This document shows, piece by piece, positions 1,684 through 32,984 of a stretch of DNA of 33,088 nucleotides. The notes beneath the pieces are model-generated. The model was not told the origin of the DNA and searched no databases. It saw only the letters and a program-made list of their open reading frames with translations. The position numbers and the translations under genes are program-made. This DNA is from Fibrobacteria bacterium (GTDB taxonomy: Bacteria > Fibrobacterota > Fibrobacteria > UBA11236). The first letter of the stretch is position 1, and each line of letters starts with the position of its first letter. The stretch spans positions 1 to 33,088 of the forward strand of contig JANYDA010000020.1 of NCBI GenBank assembly GCA_025360005.1. The letters are read 5' to 3'.

Positions 1684-2376
1684 ATGGGCTTAAAGAATGA
1701 GCTTCTAAAAGGTGTCGATCTCTTCTCCGCCCTCGACGACGCCCAACTCAATACCATCGCGCAGATGCTCATCGAAAAGACCTTCCGCAAGGGCGACATC
1801 ATTCTCATGGAGGACGATGAAAGCAACCAGAGCCTTTTCATCATCGCCAAGGGCGAGGTGAAGGTGGTCCTGACCGCGGAAGACGGCCGCGAAGCCATCC
1901 TGGCATCCCTGAAGGAAGGGGATTTCTTCGGCGAGATGGCCTTGCTGGACGGGGAACCGCGTTCGGCTACCGTGCGCGCCGTGGAGGAGTCCCGTCTTTT
2001 GACCATCCGGCGCGAGGATTTCATGGCCGCCATGAAAAAGCAGCCGGACCTGGCGCTGACCCTGCTCGGGGAAATGTCGCGGCGCTTGCGCAAATCCAAC
2101 CGCCAGATTTCCTCGCTGGCCCTGATGCGCGTATACGGCCGCGTGGCCGCTACCTTGCTCCAACTGATGGAAGAGCGCGGCATACGCTCCAAAACCAAGG
2201 ACGGCAAAAGCATGATCGTGGTCAAGGATAGACCCACCCAGCAATTCATCGCGGACATGTCCGGTACCACCCGCGAGACGGTATCGCGGGTGCTGAATTA
2301 CTTCCAGAAAAAAGGGTATATTGTGCTGGACGGCAAAGACCTCCTGATTTTGCAAGAGGATGAACTCAAAACCTGA
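1684..2376 (+). CDS. Crp/Fnr family transcriptional regulator
   Basis: This is a cytoplasmic one-component regulator of 230 residues. Residues about 12-125 form a cyclic-nucleotide-binding beta-roll. The phosphate-binding cassette F82-G-E-M-A-L then P92-R93-S-A-T matches the canonical cAMP/cGMP-binding pattern, with the ligand-contacting Glu84 and Arg93 kept. A long dimer helix follows, then a C-terminal winged helix-turn-helix around residues 170-210 (TQQFIADMSGTTRETVSRVL). There is no N-terminal cysteine cluster, so it is Crp-like rather than an oxygen-sensing Fnr. The ATG at 1684 has a good GGAGG seven bases upstream. It overlaps the next gene by 17 bp and heads an envelope gene cluster, so it may control its own operon; that last point is inference. 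Confidence 0.9.
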   Translation: MGLKNELLKGVDLFSALDDAQLNTIAQMLIEKTFRKGDIILMEDDESNQSLFIIAKGEVKVVLTAEDGREAILASLKEGDFFGEMALLDGEPRSATVRAVEESRLLTIRREDFMAAMKKQPDLALTLLGEMSRRLRKSNRQISSLALMRVYGRVAATLLQLMEERGIRSKTKDGKSMIVVKDRPTQQFIADMSGTTRETVSRVLNYFQKKGYIVLDGKDLLILQEDELKT

Positions 2377-3130
2377 GAGGGAAACCCCATCGGTGTTGGC
2401 GCGTCTTTTTTCCCGACCCTTCTTCCTGGCCCTCCTGTTCTGGATCCTGGCCGTAGCCGTTTTGTATCTGCTGACCAATATGCTCATCATGCCGTATGTG
2501 GCGGGTAAATTCAAAGGCACGGTCAAGGTTCCCGCATTGGTAAGCTTGCCCCCGGAACAGGGCAAGGCTATACTGGCTAGGAACGGGCTCATTTACATGC
2601 TGGATTCCACCGGCGATTACAGTACCGACATCGCCGCGGGGAAAATCCTCACCCAATATCCGGAGACGGGCACGGAGGTGAAGAAGGGCCGGCGCGTATG
2701 GGTCCGCATCAGTAAGGGTTTGAAGAGCGTCGAGCTGCCCGCCTTGCGCGGCCTCTCGTTGCGCCAGGCGGAGATCACCTTGCAGCAATTGGGATTGAAA
2801 GTGGGCCGGGTGAGGGAGGTGCGCAACGCCATTTTTCCCGCGGGCGCCGTGATAGGGACTACCCCGGCCGCCAACGCCGTTTTGGAAAAGGGCCGCGAGG
2901 TCAATATCGAGTTGTCCCAGGGAAAGGACGCGGCGCCCTCCGGCATGCCCTCCCTGATTGGCCAGTCGCTGAGCCAGGCCAAGGAGCAGATCAAGAGCCT
3001 GGGCCTTACCCTGGGCAAGATAGCCTACAAGAAGCAAGCGCGGAGCCTGCCCAATACGATCCTTTCGCAAACCCCGCCCGCCGGCGGGGATTACCAGGGC
3101 CGCAGCGTAGACTTGGTCGTCACCAAGTAA
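2360..3130 (+). CDS. Membrane-anchored PASTA-repeat protein
   Basis: This 256-residue protein has a short cytoplasmic N-terminus, one transmembrane segment at about residues 21-46, and three PASTA domains (about 54-118, 119-187 and 190-255). Each domain shows the usual pattern of P-x-L-x-G/S start, an amphipathic helix, a GL turn and a P-A/E-x-G ending. PASTA domains are known to bind peptidoglycan stem peptides or beta-lactams and normally sit on Ser/Thr kinases or penicillin-binding proteins. Here there is no catalytic domain, so it would be a wall-sensing or scaffolding protein facing the periplasm. The start overlaps the end of the Crp-type gene by 17 bp, implying translational coupling. 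The TPR lipoprotein gene follows after 8 bp. Confidence 0.88.
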   Translation: MNSKPERETPSVLARLFSRPFFLALLFWILAVAVLYLLTNMLIMPYVAGKFKGTVKVPALVSLPPEQGKAILARNGLIYMLDSTGDYSTDIAAGKILTQYPETGTEVKKGRRVWVRISKGLKSVELPALRGLSLRQAEITLQQLGLKVGRVREVRNAIFPAGAVIGTTPAANAVLEKGREVNIELSQGKDAAPSGMPSLIGQSLSQAKEQIKSLGLTLGKIAYKKQARSLPNTILSQTPPAGGDYQGRSVDLVVTK

Positions 3131-3138
3131 GGATCCAG

Positions 3139-5028
3139 ATGCCTCGCACTTCCAGACACCCGCACCGTAACGGCCCCGTTACCTTGGCCGCGCCTGCCCT
3201 TTTGGCCGCGTTGCTGCTCGCCGGCTGCGCCACCTCGCGCAAGGCCGGTCCCGCCAAGCCTGCCGCGCCGGAAGCGGATCGCAATCAGGAGATCCACAAC
3301 GAACAGCGCGCGTTCATCGCCCATGAGTTCTTCCTGCGCGCGCGTCAGCAGGAAATGGAAGGCAACGATGCGGTGGCGCTTTCCTATTTCCAAATCGCTT
3401 ATGAGTACGATCCGGACAGCCGCGATCTCTGCTTCCTCCTGACCGACAAGCTCAAGGCCGCGGGCAAAATGGATTCGGCGCTGGTGACGGGCAAGCGGTG
3501 CCTGGAGTTGAAGGGCGTACCGGACAGCCGCGAATACCAGGCAGTGGCGGAGATCCTCTTGCGCAAGGGCGATGTCCCCGGGGCGCTCGTCTTCTATAAC
3601 AAGGCCGTGGATCTGGATGACCAGGACAAGGATCTCCTCTATACGCTGGCGACCTTGTATGAAAGCCTCAAGGACGTGCCGCGGCACGTGGCGGTGATGG
3701 AAAAGCTGCTGCCGCGCATCGAATATCCGGTACGGTTGGTGGAAAAGCAGGGGCAGAATTACCGCCTCCTGGGCCGCGTGGACGCGGTGGCGGCGCTCTA
3801 TCGCACGGCCTGGGAAAAGACCGGCAATCCCCTGTTCGGGGAAAAGCTCGTCTCCTTCTACGAGGATCAGGAGATGTTCGCCAGCCTCCTGGACGTGCTG
3901 CGCAAGCTGGCCGCGGAGAATCCCGACAACCTCCATTATGAATTGCAGAAAGCGCGCGCGCAGATCCTGGCGGGCAAACCGGACTCGGCCATGGCTGCTT
4001 ACCAAACCCTGATCAAGAAGAGCCCGGAAGAGCGCGAGTTCCTTTCGCCCTATGCCACCCTGCTGTTTGAACAGGGCCGTTACCGGGAGGCCAAGGAGAT
4101 TTTCCAGAAGCTCATCAAGAGCCAGCCGGAAAACCCCATCAACCATTTCTACCTCGGATCCATCGGCATGGAGTTGCGGGACAAGGCCATCGCGGAGGCC
4201 GAACTCAAAAAGGCCATCGATCTGGACGCGAAGGTTCCGGAGTACTGGGCCAAGCTGGCGTCCTTCTACATCCGCGAAGGCACGGAGCAGAAGGCCGTGG
4301 ATTTGCTGGAGAAGATGGGCGAAGGCAAGGACTGGTACGCCAGCTATATCCAGGGGGTGGTCTTTACCCAGGTCGCGAAGAAGTTGGAATCCGACCGCAG
4401 GTCGGACGCGGACAAGCGGGCGGATTCGGACCGCAAGCCGGATGCGGCCGGCAAACCGGATTCCACCCGCAAAGTGGCGGACGGCAGGACGCTGGCACCG
4501 CATGATACCGGCATGACCGCGCAAACGCGCCGCTTCCGGGAACAGGGCGTGCAGTACTTCAAGAAGGCCCTGGAGCTGGAGGGCAACAACCGCCGCGTGC
4601 TGTTCGAGCTGGGCGTGGCGCTGGAGCAGCTGAACGAGCGGAGCGAGTCCATCGACGTGATGAAGCGCCTGGTCAAGCTGGATTCCAGCGACGCCACCAT
4701 CCTCAATTACCTGGGCTATATGCTGGTGGAAGAGAACCGCGAACTTGATTATGCAGGCAGCCTCATAGAACGGGCGCTCACCTTTGAACCCGAGAATGGC
4801 GCCTTTCTGGATTCCAAAGGCTGGCTGTACTATCGCAAGAACGATTTCCCCAAGGCCCGCAAGTTCATCGAGATGGCCATCGGCCGCATCCCGCAGGACA
4901 CGACCATCCTGGAGCATTACGCCCTGATCCTGGAAAAGCTGGGCCTTTCCGATCTGGCCGGTGAGAAATGGCGGCAGATCCTCAAGCTGGATCCGGCTCA
5001 TGAGCTGGCGCACCGCAAGGTGAATTAA
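3139..5028 (+). CDS. TPR-repeat lipoprotein
   Basis: A 629-residue lipoprotein. The N-terminus is a basic stretch, a hydrophobic core and the lipobox LLAGC with the lipidated Cys30, so it should be exported and anchored in a membrane, probably the outer one. The rest is a series of tetratricopeptide repeats, with clear units at about residues 60-130, 140-210, 265-395 and 465-625. Such proteins are protein-protein scaffolds. An Asp/Arg/Lys-rich low-complexity insert at about residues 417-452, made of short imperfect repeats, interrupts the repeats. The ATG at 3139 has AAGGA six bases upstream. TPR proteins often sit next to LolB- or DUF4292-type genes, and one follows here after 27 bp. Confidence 0.88.
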   Translation: MPRTSRHPHRNGPVTLAAPALLAALLLAGCATSRKAGPAKPAAPEADRNQEIHNEQRAFIAHEFFLRARQQEMEGNDAVALSYFQIAYEYDPDSRDLCFLLTDKLKAAGKMDSALVTGKRCLELKGVPDSREYQAVAEILLRKGDVPGALVFYNKAVDLDDQDKDLLYTLATLYESLKDVPRHVAVMEKLLPRIEYPVRLVEKQGQNYRLLGRVDAVAALYRTAWEKTGNPLFGEKLVSFYEDQEMFASLLDVLRKLAAENPDNLHYELQKARAQILAGKPDSAMAAYQTLIKKSPEEREFLSPYATLLFEQGRYREAKEIFQKLIKSQPENPINHFYLGSIGMELRDKAIAEAELKKAIDLDAKVPEYWAKLASFYIREGTEQKAVDLLEKMGEGKDWYASYIQGVVFTQVAKKLESDRRSDADKRADSDRKPDAAGKPDSTRKVADGRTLAPHDTGMTAQTRRFREQGVQYFKKALELEGNNRRVLFELGVALEQLNERSESIDVMKRLVKLDSSDATILNYLGYMLVEENRELDYAGSLIERALTFEPENGAFLDSKGWLYYRKNDFPKARKFIEMAIGRIPQDTTILEHYALILEKLGLSDLAGEKWRQILKLDPAHELAHRKVN

Positions 5029-5055: not shown

Positions 5056-5949
5056 TTGAAATCCCTGACCGGCCCCGATAGGATCCCCGTTGTCGCGTCC
5101 GCCTTGGCGGCGTTCGCATTCGCCGCGTTCGTTTCCGGCTGCGCCACGGCTCCCCGTTACCCGGCGGGCCAAGCCGCGCTCCGGGGGGAAACTCCCGTGT
5201 TACCCAAGGCCCCGGACTCCCTGCGCGCGGAGTTGGAGTTGACCGCTTTCGCGGGCGGACGCAAGTCCACCGTCTCGGCCGCGTTCTCGGCCAAACCGCG
5301 GGGCGGCTACAAGCTGGATTTGTACGGGCTGCCGGGGATGGTGGCGGCCAGCTTCCTGTGGACGCGGGAACAATGGACCCTGGTGCTGTTCGATCGCGAG
5401 GAGTTCTCCCAAGGCGCCGGCGAGCATGTGGAAATGGGAAACCTGGGGTTGCGGGAGGTTTCCGTGCATGACATCTTCTCTTTTCTGTGGGGGGACTTCG
5501 CTCCCGGTGATGCGCCGCGCGATGCCGGCGGCGATCCGGACAGCTTGAAGGCGGAGTTGCCGCAGGATTGGCGGGCGCTGGGCGGAGGCACGTTCGGCTA
5601 TACCGGCGACGGCGTGCGTTGGCGCATGCGCCTGGACCAGCAGACGGGGCTGGCGCGGGAGGCATGGCGGGAGGACTCGGCCTTCCGCATCGAGTTCACG
5701 GACTATAGGACGGTGGGAAGCGGAGCAGTAGGCAGCGGGGATGGGGCCCACGGGAGCAACCGGCCGTTGCCCGGCAAGGTTCGCCTCTATCGGTACCGGG
5801 ATCCGGTTCTGGAGATCAAGGTGAAAAGCGTAGAGGACAATCCCCATTGGCGCCGGAATCCGTTTTTCATCAAAGTGCCCAAAGGGTTCACCGGATTGCG
5901 GCCTGCGCGCGATGCGGACGACGCGGCACCGCCCGTGCAGCCGCACTAG
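5056..5949 (+). CDS. LolB/DUF4292-like outer-membrane lipoprotein
   Basis: A 297-residue putative lipoprotein. The hydrophobic N-terminus ends in a lipobox (FVSGC, Cys29). The following pattern, a beta-strand reading LRAELELTAF, a GGRKSTVSAAF strand and YKLDLYGLPGMVAASFLW, resembles the half-barrel of LolB-type and DUF4292 lipoproteins, which bind lipoprotein acyl chains or lipids. Family assignment is by pattern, not search. The start is uncertain: TTG at 5056 is the first codon giving a full signal peptide, with no clear ribosome-binding site, and the ATG at 5033 is out of frame and stops quickly. Position directly after a TPR lipoprotein supports a lipoprotein-sorting or envelope role. Confidence 0.7.
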   Translation: MKSLTGPDRIPVVASALAAFAFAAFVSGCATAPRYPAGQAALRGETPVLPKAPDSLRAELELTAFAGGRKSTVSAAFSAKPRGGYKLDLYGLPGMVAASFLWTREQWTLVLFDREEFSQGAGEHVEMGNLGLREVSVHDIFSFLWGDFAPGDAPRDAGGDPDSLKAELPQDWRALGGGTFGYTGDGVRWRMRLDQQTGLAREAWREDSAFRIEFTDYRTVGSGAVGSGDGAHGSNRPLPGKVRLYRYRDPVLEIKVKSVEDNPHWRRNPFFIKVPKGFTGLRPARDADDAAPPVQPH

Positions 5950-6040
5950 CGCGGTAACCCGCACCGTTCCACGCGACCGGCCCGCCTACCCCGGATTCCG
6001 GGGAGTTTGTACTTTTGTCTACCCAACCGAAAGCGTAAAC

Positions 6041-9000
6041 ATGACGGCGAATGGCGGGAAACGGGGCGGCCCCGGCGGGAGAAGCTCCCGGGCATGGGCC
6101 CATGGGATGAGAGCGGCAATGGCCCTGGGTCTCAGCTTGGTTTCCCTGGCGGCGGCCAAATCCCAGCGGTCCCCGCTTTTCAAAACTTCCGGTTCCGCGG
6201 CGCAAGCCGCCGTGGACGGACCGGATACCTTGGAGGTCTACGCCCTCTATGTGCAGTTCAAAAATGAAACCGATGCCGATGATGAGGCCTCCACCACCGG
6301 TCTGGGGCAGTTCGGGACGGCGGGCTCCAAGGCCGACGCCGATAAGAAGCAAGATTATACGCTGGATCCCAACGGAGCGCCCCGCAGGTATGAGTACTAC
6401 CTGGAAAAACATTTCGAGTTCGCCAAGAATTATTTCGAAAAGGTCTCCAACAACCGGGTGACCGTGGCCGTCAAGATTTTCCCGCGGCCGGACGCGCAGG
6501 GGGAAATCAAGCCGATCACGCTCGACAATCGCATGAAGTACTACAACCCTTCCGAACTGGACAGGGATTCCAAACAGAAGATCAGCGACTTCAATGAAGA
6601 GCGCGGCCAGCATCTGATGTTCTTCGTATACGATGCGATCAAGAAAGCCGATGGATTCGACGGGGATGATGCGAATCCGTTCAAGGCCGCCCGCAAGGAC
6701 TCCGTCGATCATCCCCTCAACACCAAGAAACACCGGTGTTACCTGCTGTTCCATGCCGGGCATTCCCGATTGTTGGACGGGGGCCAGTTGGGCGCCTTCG
6801 GAGCCAATACGCCCAACGACTTCACCGATTTCTATGTCACGCCGGACGATTTCCATTTGCTGGACAGCGCCACCTTGGACGGCAAGAAAGGCGCTGCGCC
6901 TGATAATCCCCGACGGGCCGCCAACCGGGGCGTCAAGGTCGGCACCGGCGACACCGTGAACAACATCATGATGCTTTCCGAGGCCGCCAGCCAGGATAAG
7001 GTCAACTGGGGCATCAACGGCATACTCATCAACCAATTGGCCCGGCAAATGGGCATGCCGGATATGTTCGACGTGGTCAAGGGCATTTCCCAATTGGGAT
7101 TCTTCGACGTGATGGATTTCGCCGGGTACAATACCCTGAACGGCTTCCTGCCCGTGTATCCTTCCGCCTGGGTGCGCGCCTATATGGGTTGGGATGTGCC
7201 CGTGGTGGCCAAGGCCGGCACCGGTCCATACAGCGAATACAAACTCTGGGCGCCTACCGCGGGCCAGGATCCCGCCCGGGCCACCACCGTAAAGGTTCCC
7301 ATCAACGATCGCGAATATTTCCTGGTGGAGAACCGGCAGCGCGCCGGGGCCGATTCCTTGGTCACCATCTATTACAGCGAGCAGGCCGGACCCGGCGATT
7401 TGGCCTTCAGCAAGAAGGGATCGAAAACGGTACGCTTTTCACAAGTCGATTCGCTGTTCCTGGATTCCATCACCGATCCCGCCACGGCCAACACCAAGAC
7501 CAAGAAGCTGATCGCCAATCCCAACAAGCCCGCCGGAATCATCACCGGGGCCAGCAGCTATGACCTGGGGCTGCCGGCATCGGGAATGCTGGTTTGGCAC
7601 GTGAACGAATGGTTCATCTCCCAGTTCCTCAAGGATGGCGCCGTCAACGCGTACCTGGGCGATACCCTGCGCAGCCAGTACAAGGGCCTGGAGTTGGTGG
7701 AGGCCGACGGGTCCTTGAGCATCGGCAAGGAGTTCAAGGATCAATTGGGGCAGCCTGCCTTCGACTATGGATCCGGATCGGACATGCTGCCGCACGTGCG
7801 GCGCAAGCGCGTCAATCCCCCCAAGGACACCGCCTGGTCAAACACGGTGGATACCCTCGATCAGATTGGCCCGTACGGCGCGGCCAACACCAATGCCTGG
7901 AACGACGGCCGCACGCATTTGCGCCTGGAGGCTTTGGTGCCGGACAAGGCTCTTCTGGAGCCGGGCATGAGTTCCTTCAGCGGCGATTCCATTTTCAACG
8001 TACGCGATTCCGCCTTGACTCTGCGCGTGCATTGGCCCGATAACAAAACCGTGAAGCAGGATCCGAAATGGTCCTGGCCCGTGAAGCTGGATCCGGGCGG
8101 CTTGCCGCAATCGGTCAATGTGCTCAAGGGTCCCGGCGGCGGCGAATACGTGGTGGCGGTGAGCGATCGGGGGTATGCGCAAACCTTCACCTCGGACGGC
8201 CATACCGCGCTGGACGCGGACACCACCCTTAAAGGCCTGCCCGGCTACGATTCCGTAAAAACCCTGTTGCCCAGCGGCCTGACGCGCGACACATCGACCA
8301 TTCCCGTCACTTCCCTGGCAGGGAAGCTGGGCGGCCCTCTGGGCTCGGCCACGGCAGGGGACAGCGTGCTGGCGGTGCTGACCTCGGACGCGCTCACCCT
8401 GATGAAGTTGAGCCCGGCCGGCCTGGCGGCGCGATCCAAGGATTCCTCCGCCGTCTCCGTTTCCATTTCCCTTCCGGGTCTGGTAGGCCCCGTGGCCGCG
8501 GGCGATCGCATATGGATAGTCACGCGCGATCATCGAGCCAAATCTTTCGGCCTGGGCGGCGCGCCGCTGGATGACATCGCCCTTCCGGACCTGGAATACC
8601 AAGCCCTGGCGGCCTACCCCGGCGGCGGAACCAAGCCTATGAACCTGGCGGTCGCGGCCAAAGGCGGGCAAGCCGTGATCGTGAATCCGGATGCCGGCGC
8701 GGCCGTGAAACTGGACAAGGCCTGGGGCGATCAGCAACCGGCCGGGGACGAGGCTTTCACGGTAAGCGCTTCCGATTTCGATCGGGACGGCAAGGTGGAT
8801 CTGTTCCTGTTGGGATCGAAAGGCGCCGCCACCTTGATCGATATCGGCCAAGCGCCCAATGCCCGGCCCATGGCCGGCTTCCCGCAGCGTTTTCAGCGCA
8901 GCGTGCATTTCGTCGACACGGTTTACGAAACCAAGAACGGTTCCAGCAAGCTTTCCCGCGTTATCGATTTCAACAGCGACGACCATAGCGCGCCCGCGTT

Positions 9001-9880
9001 GGCGGATCTCAACGGGGACGGCCACCCGGACATCCTTTTCTCCGCTTCCAATGCCGTCTTCGCCATCGACTATCACGGCGCGGTCCTCAAAGGCTGGCCC
9101 TTTGCGCTCGAGCCCCGCCAGAACGTCGGCTTCGCATACGGAAGCGCCCTGCATCCGGAAACCTCCATCCGCTCCACGCCCCTGGCGCTTTCCCTGGGCG
9201 GCCATCCCGCCGTTCTCATCGGTTCGCCGGACGGTCTGATCCTGGCGGTGGACAGCCTGGGCCGCAAGCTGCGGGCTTCTTCTTTCCAGGCCGCGCAAAA
9301 CAAGCGCGGCGGGCTGCTGGCGTCGGACGTGGCCGATTGGCCGCTCACCATGGGAGGCCTGACGCTGGACTCGAATGACAATCCTTACATCCATCTTTCC
9401 GCGGCGGATCTGGACGGGGACGGGAACCTGGAATTGCTGGCGCAATCCGGCACCGGCAGCCTGAACGCCTGGACCCTGGTTAATGGCCAGGCCTCGCAAG
9501 GCCAAGCCTGGACGCGGCCCGGAGGCGATGCCGGCCGCAGCAACTTCCTGGACGTAAGCGCCTGGTCCGCGGCTGCCGCGGCGGGAACCTCCGAGACCAT
9601 CGAGGAATTCCACCTGTTCCCCAGTCCGTTGCGCGGCTCCACCGCCACCATCCATTTGCGGCTGGGCGCCGCCGCCAAGAAGGCCCGCGTCCGCATCTAC
9701 GATATAGCGGGCACGGTGGTCAAAGATCAAAGTTGGGAAAACCTCACCGAGGGCCTGCAACCCTTCAACCAGATCCTGGATCTGCAAAAGCTGGGTGCGG
9801 ACGTATACTCGGCGCAAGTGGAAGTCTGGTTCCCGGGCGGTAAACGCAAGGCCTGGGAGCGGTTCGGGGTTATCCGGTAA
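6041..9880 (+). CDS. Secreted M6-type pseudopeptidase with FG-GAP repeats and sorting tail
   Basis: A 1279-residue secreted protein. The open frame extends up to an ATG at 5912 inside the previous gene, but the ATG at 6041 places a signal peptide (about residues 22-40) near the N-terminus and is preferred; 6107 is also possible. Residues about 55-560 follow the M6 (immune inhibitor A-like) pattern: YALYVQFKN, an HAGHS strand, the G-M-P-D-M-F-D turn, DVMDFAGYNT and SAWVRAYMGW. The zinc motif is gone: where HExxH should precede GxPD, the sequence reads N331-Q-L-A-R335, so proteolysis is not expected. Then come calcium-binding FG-GAP/VCBS-like DxDxDG repeats (about 905, 990 and 1120). A final domain from about 1190 resembles a type IX-style sorting domain. 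Probable role: surface binding or scaffolding. Confidence 0.85.
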   Translation: MTANGGKRGGPGGRSSRAWAHGMRAAMALGLSLVSLAAAKSQRSPLFKTSGSAAQAAVDGPDTLEVYALYVQFKNETDADDEASTTGLGQFGTAGSKADADKKQDYTLDPNGAPRRYEYYLEKHFEFAKNYFEKVSNNRVTVAVKIFPRPDAQGEIKPITLDNRMKYYNPSELDRDSKQKISDFNEERGQHLMFFVYDAIKKADGFDGDDANPFKAARKDSVDHPLNTKKHRCYLLFHAGHSRLLDGGQLGAFGANTPNDFTDFYVTPDDFHLLDSATLDGKKGAAPDNPRRAANRGVKVGTGDTVNNIMMLSEAASQDKVNWGINGILINQLARQMGMPDMFDVVKGISQLGFFDVMDFAGYNTLNGFLPVYPSAWVRAYMGWDVPVVAKAGTGPYSEYKLWAPTAGQDPARATTVKVPINDREYFLVENRQRAGADSLVTIYYSEQAGPGDLAFSKKGSKTVRFSQVDSLFLDSITDPATANTKTKKLIANPNKPAGIITGASSYDLGLPASGMLVWHVNEWFISQFLKDGAVNAYLGDTLRSQYKGLELVEADGSLSIGKEFKDQLGQPAFDYGSGSDMLPHVRRKRVNPPKDTAWSNTVDTLDQIGPYGAANTNAWNDGRTHLRLEALVPDKALLEPGMSSFSGDSIFNVRDSALTLRVHWPDNKTVKQDPKWSWPVKLDPGGLPQSVNVLKGPGGGEYVVAVSDRGYAQTFTSDGHTALDADTTLKGLPGYDSVKTLLPSGLTRDTSTIPVTSLAGKLGGPLGSATAGDSVLAVLTSDALTLMKLSPAGLAARSKDSSAVSVSISLPGLVGPVAAGDRIWIVTRDHRAKSFGLGGAPLDDIALPDLEYQALAAYPGGGTKPMNLAVAAKGGQAVIVNPDAGAAVKLDKAWGDQQPAGDEAFTVSASDFDRDGKVDLFLLGSKGAATLIDIGQAPNARPMAGFPQRFQRSVHFVDTVYETKNGSSKLSRVIDFNSDDHSAPALADLNGDGHPDILFSASNAVFAIDYHGAVLKGWPFALEPRQNVGFAYGSALHPETSIRSTPLALSLGGHPAVLIGSPDGLILAVDSLGRKLRASSFQAAQNKRGGLLASDVADWPLTMGGLTLDSNDNPYIHLSAADLDGDGNLELLAQSGTGSLNAWTLVNGQASQGQAWTRPGGDAGRSNFLDVSAWSAAAAAGTSETIEEFHLFPSPLRGSTATIHLRLGAAAKKARVRIYDIAGTVVKDQSWENLTEGLQPFNQILDLQKLGADVYSAQVEVWFPGGKRKAWERFGVIR

Positions 9881-10116: not shown

Positions 10117-10803
10117 ATGTACAAATACATCATCATGGGCATACAGGGCTGCGGCAAAGGCACGCAGGCGAAGCTGTTGTGCGACAAATACGACTTTACC
10201 CACATCTCCATCGGGGACATTTTCCGCTGGCATATCGCGAATCATACCAAGCTGGCCGCCAAGATCAACCGGATCATCTCCAAAGGGCAGATGGTGGGGG
10301 ATGACCTGGTGGCCAAGGTGGTGTCTGAGCGCATGTCCTGGCACAATTGGAATTACGGCTTTGTCCTGGATGGTTTCCCGCGCAATTTCGCTCAGGCGGA
10401 ATTCCTATTCGAGAGCTACAACATCAACGCCGTGATCCACATGGACGCGCCGGACAGCCTGGTCACCGAGCGCGTGATGGCCCGGCGGGTTTGCTCGCAA
10501 TGCGGCCTCGATTATAACCTAATCGGCCATCGCCCCAAGGTGGAAGGCATTTGCGACGTATGCGGCGGCAAATTACTGCAACGCTCGGACGATCATCCCG
10601 AGGCCATCCAGAAACGCATCGAGGATTACCATGCCAAGACCGAGCCCATGTTGACGTTCTTCCGGCGCATCAACATCCTTCACAGCGTGGACGCCACCAG
10701 ATCGATCCCGGAAGTGTTCGAGGAGATCCGGAAATCCCTGGGCCTGCCCGCGCAACCCAAAGCGATGAATTCGAACACCTTGAGCACGGAGGCGCTTACT
10801 TGA
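10117..10803 (+). CDS. adk: Adenylate kinase
   Basis: Converts AMP and ATP into two ADP in the cytoplasm and so balances the adenylate pool. The 228-residue length is that of a long-type enzyme. The P-loop G8-I-Q-G-C-G-K14-G-T is intact, followed by the AMP-binding SIGDIFR and DGFPRN motifs. The lid domain has a four-cysteine zinc site, Cys126/Cys129 and Cys146/Cys149, as in many Gram-positive and thermophile enzymes. The C-terminal tail of about 15 residues is unusual for the family and is probably unstructured. The ATG at 10117 is preceded by AAAGGAACGAG. Its TGA overlaps the start codon of rfbA, so the two are likely co-translated. Confidence 0.95.
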
Positions 10804-25703: not shown

Positions 25704-27913
25704 TCAGAGCTTTCCGGTTATCCTTCCCGTCGAAAAATCGCATTTAAAGAAGAGGGGTTGTCCCGCGATATCATTTGTGACGCTTCCGGTTTTCCAGGAA
25801 AGAAGATGTTTTCCGGCATCTAGATTCCTATCGCTGAATGACCATAGCATCTTCCCATCCAAGTTGTAGACATACAAGGAATACCGTCCTGAGCCACCCA
25901 AATCGAGAATGAACTGGGCGGTTTGCCTGTCCAAGCCGATGTGAATCACCGGGGACTTTACCTGCTCACGTATCCTTTGCTCCATTTTTATCGAGACGGA
26001 ATTCTGCGGCCAAGCCCCAATTTGCAGCCGGGCTTCATCGATGAACGCGACACGATCGGAGCCCACAATCATGGAGACAAAGTACTCGGGAGTCTTCAGT
26101 GTAAAGAGGGTTTTCCCGGCATTGAAATCATAAACGGAATTATTGCGCGGGCTGAAAAGGGTGGAGTCGGACAAAAGCACGGTTTCACCGGGAAAACCGG
26201 AATAATTGCTTGGAACGGGAGTTGTTTTCAATAATTTCCCGGTAATGTCGTAAATCATGAGATCGGTGTTGCTGATGGTCGCCAACAAACTATCTGAGAG
26301 CCATCCGACTCCATATCCGATGACTGCATCCGCCAATTTGCCGTTGTCGTATATCTTTGTGAGTTTGCCGTCCGCGCTCACAATAATAAAGGACTTTCCA
26401 TCATGGGAAAGGATCGGAGCCCAGGACGCGGAGGTCTCTATGTCTCGAGGGGCCACACCTGTTACAGCAGAATGGAATTCATCGGTATTTCCCGTGTCCG
26501 TCAAGATTCTCGAGGTCAAGTACCACAACCCGACATACGTTCCGGATACCATTGACACCGTATGCCCGTCATCCGACAGGTTAAAATTGAACAGCGTTGC
26601 ATAGCTGCCTGGAAAGGTCAACGTTTTCAAATACCGATCTTGCTCTATCGAGTACAAGAAAAGCGTGTCCGAAGTATCGCCCGCAACGGGTCGGGAGACA
26701 AAGGCCAAGATTTTACCATCCTTGCTTATTTTCATGGAGTTGGAGGAGCGCTCCAGTTCCCTTTCGAGTTGAGCCGAATCGCCGACACGTTTATAGACCA
26801 GGATTTTCCCCAATGGACTTGAAACGGCAAATTCACCTGAAGGAGAGGACGCCATGGAGTTCACCGATCCGAGGGCGAACGCCTCCTCTTTCCCGCCCGA
26901 AACCTGGAGGTCGCCGTTCACCAGGGCGCCCCTATCCGTTCCTGCGATCCAACTGCCGGAATCGTCGATAAAAAAGTTCGCAAAATATCCGAAAGGTCCA
27001 GACCATCCATACGAAGGCAGGCCATACTTTAATAGTTTGGAGACACCTGGCCCAATCCACGGCCGAGATACCATTGAGTCGGATTGCAGATTGATAACCT
27101 CATTACCAGCGACAAGGTATTTCCCGGAAGCCGCGGCACTCACCGCGGAAGTATTAGGGAGGGTTTTGATGGGTCCGGGATCTCCCCCTATTTTGTAAAT
27201 GCTGATTGCGTAATCCGGGCTATGGATCGAATTCGTCCAGAACCAATCGCCGGAGCCGCCCAACTCATCCTCGGCTCGGAATTTGAAAATGCCGACCCGC
27301 GATCCGCTTACGGAATAGATCCGGGCAATGAGCCCTTCCGTAGTAATGAATTTTTTCTTGTCGTCGAACCAGCAATAAAATGTTCCTGAATATCCAATAC
27401 CGGTTTTGCTCCCATCAACGGGGCTCACGGTTTCCAACGTATCCACATCCAACCGTACGATATGAACACCTCCGGAGTCGGCAACCACCTCAGCCTTGGA
27501 GTAATCGCCGTTCCTTTTGAATATTTTCACACCTTGTTTTGAAAAAAATAAAAATCCGGTTGTGGTGGTGATCCAATAGTATTGACCGTCCAGGGACAAT
27601 CCAGACTCGATGAAGGATCCGGTCCAGGAGGAAGCTTTTTTTGTGTATCCGAATCGTAGACTTTCAACTCCGTGCCGATCGAGGACAGGATTGTATTTCC
27701 TTCGAAATCCACCGCGGTTCCTTTCCCGCTAAGCAGTACTTTTTTGGAACCTGTTTCCCATAACCTCCATGCATAGGAATAATCCATGGTTACGAGTTTA
27801 TCCCCCGATTTTTTGACGTACCAGATAGGAGACGTATGGCCCAGATCCAATACTGTCACGCCAAAAGAGAACCGGATTAGCTCCAGAAATAAAATTGGGA
27901 ATAGGCGTTTCAT
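25704..27913 (-). CDS. Secreted beta-propeller protein, frame broken at an A AAA AAG site
   Basis: Two frames make one protein of about 736 residues. The first, from ATG 27913, has a signal peptide (MKRLFPILFLELIRFSFG) and beta-propeller blades (LVTMDYSYAWRLWE, NTILSSIGTELKVYD). It runs on to a stop at 27527, giving only 128 residues. The second frame, ending at 25704, carries the rest of the WD40/YVTN-like blades and a C-terminal domain resembling a sorting tail (SLYVYNLDGKMLW). It has no signal peptide of its own. The frames join by a -1 shift at 27635-27641, where the mRNA reads A AAA AAG. This could be programmed frameshifting, transcript slippage, a mutation, or an assembly error in a run of seven A. 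Function is unknown; a secreted surface protein is likely. Confidence 0.7.
27635..27641 (-). other. A AAA AAG slippery heptamer
   Basis: On the minus strand the codons CAA AAA AAG contain the heptamer A AAA AAG in the zero frame, the same sequence and phase used for the -1 frameshift in E. coli dnaX. A -1 shift leads directly into the long open frame ending at 25704. No strong stem-loop just downstream and no well-placed upstream Shine-Dalgarno-like stimulator is evident. Confidence 0.6.
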
Positions 27914-29874: not shown

Positions 29875-31932
29875 TTATCGGACAAGTGAAAGGGTGCGAA
29901 TGAGCTTGGAATTCGGTGTCTTAACCTCGACCAGGTATAGCCCACCTTCAAGGGTTGGACAAGGAACGGAAAATTCGCCTTTGGAGGCCTCAGCGGTCAT
30001 CACCGTGATCCGCTTTCCCGCAAGTGAGTAAAGCGTAACATGAACCGCGCCCTGGAAATGGGCATCCAGTTTTAAAAATAACCGATTATCAGAAATGCGG
30101 GCGGACAGTTTTCCCTGTTGGGAAATTCGCTTTTCGACCGATACAGTGGGCTCATGCGATGCCGTGAGTATTGCCCCTCGCTCTCCTACCGCCACATAGC
30201 GGGTTTCCGCCGAGGCTACGGACAATAGAGTGGGTTCCGAGGAGGAGTGGGTATCGGAACGGCCGTTTGACCAATCGACCCCATTGGGCGAATGGAAAAC
30301 ATCCCCGCTACCTCCTACTGCTATTAATTCATCGCCAGACCAAATAACGGAACTCAAATAGCTTGGTGATGCTGGCTGTTTCGACCAAGTGTAGCCATCT
30401 GGAGATGTGTAAACGAATTCCGCCCCGGCCAGAACGAATTGGGATCCCGCCCAGATCAAGCTGTGGCGTATTACCGCGCGGGCGTCGGTTTCGTTTCTGG
30501 CCCAGGTGTCCCCGCCATTGTCGGAGGTAAATATTGCTGCAGTACCCGAACCATCACCATTCCATCCAATTACGACGTAGGTACTTCCTGACCAAGCCAC
30601 CGAGTGAAGAGTGTACCCGTGACCAGGTCGAACGACCTGCCCAATGTCTCTGGCATACCAAGCTATTCCCTCAAGCGAAGTTCCATAATTTCCGCCAACT
30701 GCGATAATTTGTTTGCCATCCCACTTTACCTCTGCAGGGTAGAACAAATCAGGATGACGAACCTTCCAGAGAATCCCATCAGGGGAGGTCATAATGACAG
30801 TGCCCCCAACGGCATTACCGGAAGTGTCAAAATAAAAGAAGGAACCTGCCGCAATTAATTGGGTACCAGCCCACGTCACTGAATTTAATGTTATCGTGCT
30901 ATCGAAATACCTCTGCTCCCAGGTTTCTCCATCCTCGGAGGTGAGAATGGTGCCTTTTCCGCTGACAGCCACGAATTGATTTCCCGTCCAGGTTACGGAA
31001 TTAAGGTTCTCCCGGGTCAGCCATTTATTCCAAACCGACCAGTCCGCGCCATCGGTAGAGATTCCGATCTCACCGTTCGCGCCTATCAGCACAAAATGGC
31101 CATCGCGCCAACTGAAATCGGAAAGGCCTTGAAGCCCCGGATTTCTTTTCGTCCACGTAACCCCGTCAGGCGAGGTCACTAAGGTATCGCGGACTATGGC
31201 GAGGAATTGGGTTCCGGCCCAGGAAAATTTTGTCAACGCACCCGTAACACTCAAGGAATGTTCGGTCCAGGATTTGAAATCCGAGGTGGTAAGAATGCGT
31301 CCCTCCGCGCAAGATGCGACCAATTGATTTTCCGTCCAGGTTACCGAGGTGACTTGACACGGAATGGATGAGCCCAATTGATTCCAAGCCAAACCATCCG
31401 GGGAGGTCAACAGGGTTGCCTGAGCATCGACAACGACTATTTGGCTGCCGGTCCATTTCACGAATACCAGATTGTTGCTGTTACCGGTCGTTCTAATCGC
31501 CCACGCACCCCCATCAGGCGAGGTCAGGACGGTTCCCGCATCACCGACAGCCACGAGCTGAGTGCCGGTCCAAGCCAAGGAACGCAAAGCGCTTCCCGGA
31601 CCGGAGCGGATTAGAGTCCAATGTGAACTATCGGAGGAAATCAGAACCCGGGTTCCTCCACCCAAGGCCAGAAATTGGCTGTCGGTTTTTACTACCGAGT
31701 AAAGCGAATCCGTTACGACGGGATTTCCGGTGAGCGCGGACCAAGTGGTGCCGTTTTGAGTCGAGAAATAAGACTCGCTGAAGTTGGCCACCAAATGGTC
31801 TCCGATCCAGGTGGCGGAAGTCAGAGGCTTCAAGCTTGGGGCAGGATTTCGGATGGTCCAATCCAAGGTGGCGGATCTGGAGGACAGGGTAAGCGAAAAA
31901 AAAGTGGTGAGGACAACTCCAGTTTTTTTCAT
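29875..31932 (-). CDS. Secreted BNR/YCF48-like repeat protein with sorting tail
   Basis: A 685-residue secreted protein. A signal peptide (about residues 1-21) is followed by about 13 tandem units of roughly 42 residues on the pattern L-x-S-V-x-W-T-G-x-Q-L-V-A-V-G-x-x-G, then I-L-T-S-P-D-G-x-x-W. The S-P-D-G-x-x-W element is the Asp-box of sialidase-type beta-propellers, but the catalytic arginine triad of a sialidase is not seen, so it is likely a binding or structural protein. The last 75 residues form a beta-sandwich (VHVTLYSLAGKRI and GGLYLVEVKTPNSK, ending LVR) like a type IX-style sorting domain. The ATG at 31932 has GAGG upstream. A shorter paralogue lies 74 bp upstream. Confidence 0.85.
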   Translation of the reverse strand: MKKTGVVLTTFFSLTLSSRSATLDWTIRNPAPSLKPLTSATWIGDHLVANFSESYFSTQNGTTWSALTGNPVVTDSLYSVVKTDSQFLALGGGTRVLISSDSSHWTLIRSGPGSALRSLAWTGTQLVAVGDAGTVLTSPDGGAWAIRTTGNSNNLVFVKWTGSQIVVVDAQATLLTSPDGLAWNQLGSSIPCQVTSVTWTENQLVASCAEGRILTTSDFKSWTEHSLSVTGALTKFSWAGTQFLAIVRDTLVTSPDGVTWTKRNPGLQGLSDFSWRDGHFVLIGANGEIGISTDGADWSVWNKWLTRENLNSVTWTGNQFVAVSGKGTILTSEDGETWEQRYFDSTITLNSVTWAGTQLIAAGSFFYFDTSGNAVGGTVIMTSPDGILWKVRHPDLFYPAEVKWDGKQIIAVGGNYGTSLEGIAWYARDIGQVVRPGHGYTLHSVAWSGSTYVVIGWNGDGSGTAAIFTSDNGGDTWARNETDARAVIRHSLIWAGSQFVLAGAEFVYTSPDGYTWSKQPASPSYLSSVIWSGDELIAVGGSGDVFHSPNGVDWSNGRSDTHSSSEPTLLSVASAETRYVAVGERGAILTASHEPTVSVEKRISQQGKLSARISDNRLFLKLDAHFQGAVHVTLYSLAGKRITVMTAEASKGEFSVPCPTLEGGLYLVEVKTPNSKLIRTLSLVR

Positions 31933-32006: not shown

Positions 32007-32984
32007 TTAGCGAACAAGGGTAAACTCACGAACGGTACGTTTGCCGGCGTACTCGGATTTTAAAACATAAACACCGCGTTCGAATCCCTGTAAGGAAAAA
32101 GAAACACGGTTTTTGGAATTAGACTCTTTGAAGAAGCCCTTTTTGTGACCGCTTAAATCGTAAATTTCGACTTTGACATCTTTGATGCCCGAGTAAGGCA
32201 AAACCACTTCCAGATTGGCTCCAACGATGCGTAATGACATTTCAGGATTGACCGGTGCGCTGCGAGATTTTATCGATGTGGGTTCTATTTGAGAGGTGAT
32301 TATAATCCCATGATTACCGACAGCGACTAATGCTTTTCCTGTCGAGGTCACGGAGAGAATGTCATTCCCATCCGTATTCGTAGACGAAAGGCGAGTGGGC
32401 TCACCAAGTATTCCTTCCAACGGGTGATTTAACCAAGAAACGCCGTCCGCAGAGGTTAGGATTGCCGCGCCTGACACCATTAGGTAGGATCGCTGGGAAG
32501 TTTGCTGTATGATTGCTCCGGTGGAGCCTACGGTTATTAATTGATTCCCGAACGAGGCGACATCGTTCAAGTAAGCGTAAGGGCTAAATGATTGCGATAT
32601 CCAAGAGACTCCGTCTGTAGAAGTCAAGATCGTGCCGCTACCCACCGCTACCAATTGTGTTCCAATTGATTTCACGGCAGACAACGACAACGGATCCCCA
32701 GGTCTGCTTTGTCCTTTCCAAAGGACGCCATCCGAAGAGGTATAGATGGTGGGGTTGGCAGATAGGCGGGTGTTCTCTCCTATAGCCAGGAACTGCGATC
32801 CGGTCCAGGTTACGCTTTTGAAAACCCTTTGAGACATCTCGGGAGGTGTCCAGGAGATCCATTTTACGCCATCTTCGGATCGAAGGACAATACCCCCTTC
32901 GCCGCCTCTTCCAACCACTACAAACTCTTTACCATCCCATGTCACATCATTTAGTATTGCGCTGGTTATCGGTAACCGTTCCAC
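32007..32984 (-). CDS. BNR/YCF48-like repeat protein lacking a signal peptide
   Basis: A 325-residue paralogue of the next gene in the block. It has about five to six units of the same L-N-D-V-x-W-x-G-K-x-F-V-V-V-G and TSxDGxxW type and the same C-terminal sorting-like domain (VKVEIYDLSGHKKG and RGVYVLKSEYAGKRTV, ending LVR). One unit carries an insert of about 16 residues (IIQQTSQRSYLM). The frame is open from 33023, with a GTG at 32984 as the only plausible start and a stop at 33024-33026. No signal peptide is found in any frame upstream to the window edge, although the tail implies export. It is therefore probably 5'-truncated, or its start is disrupted just beyond the repeat region. Confidence 0.7.
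   Translation of the reverse strand: MERLPITSAILNDVTWDGKEFVVVGRGGEGGIVLRSEDGVKWISWTPPEMSQRVFKSVTWTGSQFLAIGENTRLSANPTIYTSSDGVLWKGQSRPGDPLSLSAVKSIGTQLVAVGSGTILTSTDGVSWISQSFSPYAYLNDVASFGNQLITVGSTGAIIQQTSQRSYLMVSGAAILTSADGVSWLNHPLEGILGEPTRLSSTNTDGNDILSVTSTGKALVAVGNHGIIITSQIEPTSIKSRSAPVNPEMSLRIVGANLEVVLPYSGIKDVKVEIYDLSGHKKGFFKESNSKNRVSFSLQGFERGVYVLKSEYAGKRTVREFTLVR

Follow-up and report, generated by a model that had tools for sequence, protein, structure and literature searches.

The closest described relative of the protein analysed here is the NCBIfam family NF052323 (T9SSA_dep_M6i), named "T9SS-dependent M6-like inactivated metalloprotease"; a dead M6 protein with a type IX tail has already been recognised by NCBI curators and is, hence, not new as a kind. 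The accessions NF052323, NF052324 (putative PorU2) and NF052325 (putative PorV2) are consecutive, a numbering which suggests that the three families were regarded as connected when they were curated, but the neighbours of the M6 genes described below match the canonical PorU and PorV-family models much better than those of PorU2/PorV2. A literature search with limited coverage of subscription journals found no paper on such proteins.

PorZ, a component of the attachment complex of P. gingivalis, has in common with our protein a make-up of a propeller plus a C-terminal domain (CTD) and, to our knowledge, contains no M6 domain. It is a CTD protein paired with a barrel of the PorV/PorQ type, in a complex formed by PorU:PorV with PorQ:PorZ (PMC5562754), and this pairing resembles that of the M6 and PorV genes. 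The idea that the M6-like protein replaces PorZ was dropped, because separate PorZ-like proteins coexist with it in the same genomes. The PorU sortase is likewise a CTD protein with a protease fold and is encoded beside porV in P. gingivalis and C. hutchinsonii (PMC8564354), but that fold is of the C25 cysteine protease type, unrelated to M6, and our genome encodes a separate PorU.

We analysed a 33,088-nt stretch of a Fibrobacteria genome (contig JANYDA010000020.1, hereafter the window; Table 1). The product of its M6-like gene is similar to NF052323 over the full length, in three stretches spanning model positions 14-1030 of 1043, and has the same architecture, with an M6-like region lacking HExxH, a middle region and a T9SS type A tail. 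However, the score, 255 bits, does not reach the cut-off of 600, and Fibrobacterota have fixed an NQxxR motif where dead copies outside the phylum vary. The protein shares with the M6 peptidases (immune inhibitor A) a predicted fold over about 400 residues, the GxPD turn and the MD turn, but lacks HExxH and matches the M6 domain model TIGR03296 with 40.3 bits (cut-off 110.8), over positions 178-275 of 286. The phylum-wide fixed replacement motif, together with a row of genes, PorU-PorV-M6(-Peptidase_MA), is what our analysis adds to the named family, and on these two observations the reading with the best support is that the protein has a non-catalytic role in T9SS sorting.

Predicted fold and domain layout

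The gene is open across all 1279 codons, as originally predicted; another in-frame ATG is present upstream of 6041, at 5912. The M6-like region, modelled using 43 homologues (mean pLDDT 82.2, pTM 0.87), gave Bacillus immune inhibitor A2 (InhA2, M6) as its best VIA-align match (4yu5/4yu6, Z 19.6/19.1). The Z 19.6 superposition covers 398 residues at 16% identity, and the next family follows at Z 8.0. For this region, Foldseek alone returned no match at E ≤ 0.001, and InhA2 came from the second look with VIA-align. Searches by sequence against solved structures recovered no M6 relative, whether the query was the window protein, a profile of the 43 homologues (sole match by chance, E 1.1) or an active relative. 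On the strength of the model and the superposition, the predicted fold of residues 41-700 is that of M6, in line with the original prediction that the fold pattern had been kept.

The remainder, residues 690-1279, is modelled (pLDDT 82.5) as a propeller plus a C-terminal beta domain. Its first Foldseek match is PorZ (5m11, E 4.9e-11), and the propeller half reaches fold matches of Z up to 27.7, with FG-GAP_3 (1.5e-10) and FG-GAP (1.2e-9) as its Pfam matches. The calcium-binding repeats of the original prediction correspond to these FG-GAP repeats. Its sorting tail corresponds to a T9SS type A-like CTD that is also covered by NF052323 positions 767-1030, although the domain alone scores 15.2 bits against Por_Secre_tail, below the Pfam cut-off of 27.

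Table 1. Features of the M6-like gene and its neighbours (window positions; residues refer to the M6-like protein)
Feature	Position	Strand	Basis
PASTA protein without kinase domain, neighbour kept across class Fibrobacteria	2360..3130	+	Pfam PASTA 1e-34; synteny
TPR protein with lipoprotein-like N terminus, conserved neighbour	3139..5028	+	family search, synteny
Putative lipoprotein immediately upstream, neighbour kept across class Fibrobacteria	5056..5949	+	synteny
M6-like inactivated, T9SS-type surface protein (putative)	6041..9880	+	open frame, 1279 aa; NCBIfam NF052323
M6-like region, residues 41-700, including beta domains after the catalytic domain	6161..8140	+	structure model and VIA-align
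HAG, residues 238-240, invariant	6752..6760	+	homologue alignment
NQLAR replacing HExxH, residues 331-335, in predicted helix of residues 326-337	7031..7045	+	sequence, alignment, model
MDFAGY, residues 358-363, conserved, at the metzincin Met-turn position	7112..7129	+	homologue alignment
Beta-propeller with FG-GAP repeats, about residues 690-1148	8108..9484	+	Pfam, model, fold match
T9SS type A-like CTD for sorting, about residues 1187-1279	9599..9877	+	Por_Secre_tail, model, tail comparison
Adenylate kinase, downstream neighbour within the genus	10117..10803	+	family search, synteny

The lost zinc site and the NQxxR motif

Residues 331-344 (7031-7072) read NQLARQMGMPDMFD, letter for letter as had been claimed, and NQLAR in place of HExxH leaves neither the two zinc histidines nor the catalytic glutamate. 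The alignment of NQLAR with HExxH, first drawn from the GxPDxxD turn, does not depend on that turn only, as homologues outside the phylum with an intact HEFGHQLGLPDLYD share the same columns and the model of residues 41-700 superposes on InhA2. No HExxH occurs anywhere in the 1279-aa protein, which was scanned in full, and the motif is kept in 0 of the 79 Fibrobacterota sequences that reach this position (the window protein and 78 named homologues). Of these 79 sequences, 71 retain N331, 77 retain Q332 and 77 retain R335. The phylum has thus come close to fixing NQ-x-[AG]-R as the replacement, with Q332 and R335 ranking 71st and 79th by entropy among 1065 columns. Position 341, presumably the place of the third ligand, is more commonly Asn than Asp in the Fibrobacterota sequences, and HAG is invariant, a motif that we take to be a kept M6-type one. 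Two Fibrobacterota copies (HQIAR in L114 and HQVAR in L116) keep the first histidine and are possible intermediates of the motif loss.

Pairwise dN/dS for residues 41-690 against six relatives is 0.14-0.25, rough values with dS near saturation that nevertheless indicate purifying selection. Together with the complete absence of HExxH from the 79 sequences and the conservation of N331, Q332 and R335, this range rules out both a sequencing accident and a decaying gene. The description of the protein as a dead protease thus stands as far as the motif loss, the M6-like fold and the retention of the gene are concerned; that proteolysis has been lost is what we infer from the sequence. Either another HExxH-like site or a non-M6 fold would have spoken against that description, and neither was found when both were looked for. 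The only histidines conserved in at least 85% of sequences within residues 41-700 are H238 and H585, so that no second histidine-based zinc site is visible.

Conservation of the motif could instead reflect another enzymatic activity, or another metal site, in the old cleft, built from H238, E314, D319, D359, Q332 and R335. Q332, R335 and the surrounding polar set are indeed conserved as functional residues are, but because residues 41-700 contain just two conserved histidines and nothing resembling HExxH, and with E314, Q318 and D319 present in active relatives too and therefore not part of a new site, we consider such an activity improbable. It is very unlikely, in our estimate, that NQxxR merely packs the old active-site helix and that the domain is a passive spacer carrying the propeller and the tail. 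The helix is predicted at the same place, and hydrogen bonds from Asn, Gln and Arg can stand in for a zinc site. Yet mean column identity is higher in the M6-like region (41%) than in the propeller that it would carry (28%), and dead relatives elsewhere tolerate very different letters, which argues that packing alone does not need NQxxR. We favour the interpretation that NQxxR in Fibrobacterota serves as a structural or binding element.

Two observations concern other copies. In one same-genus genome, the M6-like gene is broken into two frames (L040:3350-6871 and 6073-7404), through either a frameshift or an assembly error. The genome that contains the window also encodes (L007; G000:C2, about 6024-7421) a separate 466-aa ORF with HELGHSLGLPHAHS, by its sequence a predicted M6-like/metzincin protease with an intact zinc motif.

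Relatives outside the phylum and the PorU-PorV-M6 row

The family is present in 162 of 168 Fibrobacterota genomes, and in 89/89 of the good ones, although the NF052323 cut-off is passed by none of them; the substitution is common to this phylum-wide family and not peculiar to the window gene. Outside the phylum, we examined 30 loci, nearly all from different family-level groups and chosen by NF052323 score. Nine have HExxH and are referred to as active (HEFGH, HEMGH, HEVGH), and the other 21 have varied decayed motifs (ANFAS, LMFGH, KLFGN, HQFGH and others). In the tree, a branch with full support separates Fibrobacterota from the rest, and no fewer than four switches between the active and dead states are needed; grouping every dead row into a single clade is weakly rejected (p 0.036). 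When Fibrobacterota are forced together with an 18-row dead clade, the AU test does not reject the constraint (p 0.43), and a separate catalytic loss in Fibrobacterota is accordingly not established. A single loss shared with that clade is possible and is favoured by the shared PorV-M6-MA gene order. The contrast between the fixed NQxxR of Fibrobacterota and the varied motifs elsewhere stands under one loss or two.

The genome of the window encodes T9SS components: SprA together with its neighbours (622 bits, cut-off 200), the PorU sortase (443 bits, cut-off 420) and PorV-family genes. Across genomes outside the phylum, the M6-like family and SprA co-occur: 44 genomes have the two together, 5 have M6 without SprA, 11 have SprA without M6 and 164 lack both (Fisher 1.6e-30, with phylogeny not corrected for). 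Each of the 30 outside loci has a PorV/PorQ-family gene adjoining M6 in the same orientation, directly 5' in 27, an adjacency that holds for good NF052323 matches, the loci being chosen by that score, and all 10 of the neighbours tested exceed the family cut-off of 90 bits. In 11 of the 20 longer outside loci, a C25 gene comes first, completing a PorU-PorV-M6 row, and 5/5 of the C25 genes tested pass the PorU sortase cut-off. Because these rows hold six active and five dead M6 genes, the linkage is independent of catalysis. The sister class (Chitinivibrionales and Chitinispirillia by name) has 18 loci in which a PorV-family gene precedes the M6 gene, and the PorV-family product carries an inserted propeller of the two-component type. 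Fibrobacterota PorV-family proteins (L168:3344-5755, L192:6234-8933) have a long, weakly PorZ-like Reg_prop propeller insert, that is, a barrel fused with a PorZ-like propeller.

The main rival to a sorting role is that the protein is ordinary T9SS cargo, a surface adhesin or a carbohydrate- or polymer-binding pseudoprotease with its own PorV-family carrier, and no part of the sorting machine; the PorV-family adjacency would then only reflect a carrier/cargo pair. Propellers and FG-GAP repeats are frequent binding modules. Carrier/cargo pairs are documented in Flavobacterium, where type B CTD proteins go with SprF-like shuttles (PMC12618676), and Fibrobacter cellulases have been proposed as T9SS users (PMC6851124). 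Typical cargo, in contrast, is variable, whereas this family is near-universal in the phylum and occurs in 44 of the 55 sampled outside genomes with SprA; furthermore, the row described above includes the PorU sortase and not only a carrier. We therefore find the cargo interpretation rather doubtful, while taking it seriously, and prefer that of a sorting partner.

Dead and active loci differ in what lies downstream. A gene encoding a Peptidase_MA/PD40 protein of 1000-1200 aa lies directly 3' of the M6 gene in 17 of the 21 dead outside loci and in 0 of the 8 active ones that could be tested, the ninth (L089) having no downstream DNA; Fisher's test on 9 active and 21 dead loci, L089 included, gives p 5e-5. 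On the tree, this association amounts to one or two events with only one supported independent pair, which places it beyond statistical test, and it is probably one evolutionary event. Peptidase_MA genes occupy the same position in 13 sister-class loci. In the ten sequences compared, HExxH and the distal Glu are invariant, and the homologue in the genome of the window (G000:C52:131805-134927) has HEFSH and WFAEG, such that the protein is predicted from its motifs to be an active protease. We suggest that Peptidase_MA could be a replacement for the lost M6 protease activity.

A candidate sorting partner and its setting in Fibrobacteria

We consider it somewhat more probable than the alternatives combined that the protein is a non-catalytic, surface-exposed partner of PorV and PorU in type IX sorting, a reading that includes the non-catalytic surface role of the original prediction. 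The protein would be made with a Sec-type signal, and its CTD would carry it through the SprA translocon and across the outer membrane to the cell surface, where a PorV/PorQ-family barrel may hold it. There, it could join the PorU-PorV sorting/attachment apparatus as a subunit or an escort without catalytic activity, making contacts via a binding surface of the dead M6 domain and the beta-propeller. It probably descends from an active M6 protease encoded in the same row. Catalytic activity would have been lost, plausibly as an active Peptidase_MA protease joined the row, and the former zinc site would have become the fixed NQxxR element in Fibrobacterota. The surface location, the physical partnership with PorV and PorU, the takeover by Peptidase_MA and the role of NQxxR are all parts of this scheme that we infer.

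In the window's own class, the M6-like gene lies apart from the PorV, PorU and Peptidase_MA genes (a PorV-family homologue of the same genome is at G000:C14, about 246733-249432), so that the partnership there rests on ancestry. The envelope cluster of the original prediction is recognisable in the PASTA, TPR and lipoprotein neighbours, but it is probably a secondary home, given the PorV/PorU row of the relatives. The order of PASTA, TPR, lipoprotein and M6-like genes reaches as far as Fibrobacter.

More tentatively, and with less than even confidence, we propose the protein as a so far unrecognised core subunit for T9SS sorting outside Bacteroidota: an M6 surface protein made with PorU and PorV, whose catalysis would have been lost on the arrival of Peptidase_MA in the row and whose dead site would have turned into a fixed NQxxR binding element in Fibrobacterota. 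Knowledge of the T9SS comes almost exclusively from Bacteroidota, and Fibrobacterota are rumen cellulose degraders; a near-universal CTD protein with relatives in a PorU/PorV row is a concrete candidate for cargo processing or anchoring beyond Bacteroidota. The family also offers a natural series from an active protease to a pseudoprotease with a newly fixed motif, which helps to ask why dead proteases are kept.

Several further genes in these neighbourhoods deserve mention. The PASTA protein has a membrane segment and no kinase domain, and its gene precedes the TPR, lipoprotein and M6-like genes across class Fibrobacteria; a family search on the putative lipoprotein found no family. In 42 loci, mostly Fibrobacter by name, a gene for an FGE-fold lipoprotein comes right after the M6-like gene, with a median gap of 16 bp, and the products (for example, L161:9486-10328 and L181:9373-10272) resemble PorK/GldK with scores that reach 93 bits at most, against a cut-off of 350. 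Finally, three other proteins of the window, at 25704-27599, 29875-31932 and 32007-32984 (-), give further weak T9SS tail matches, below the curated cut-offs.
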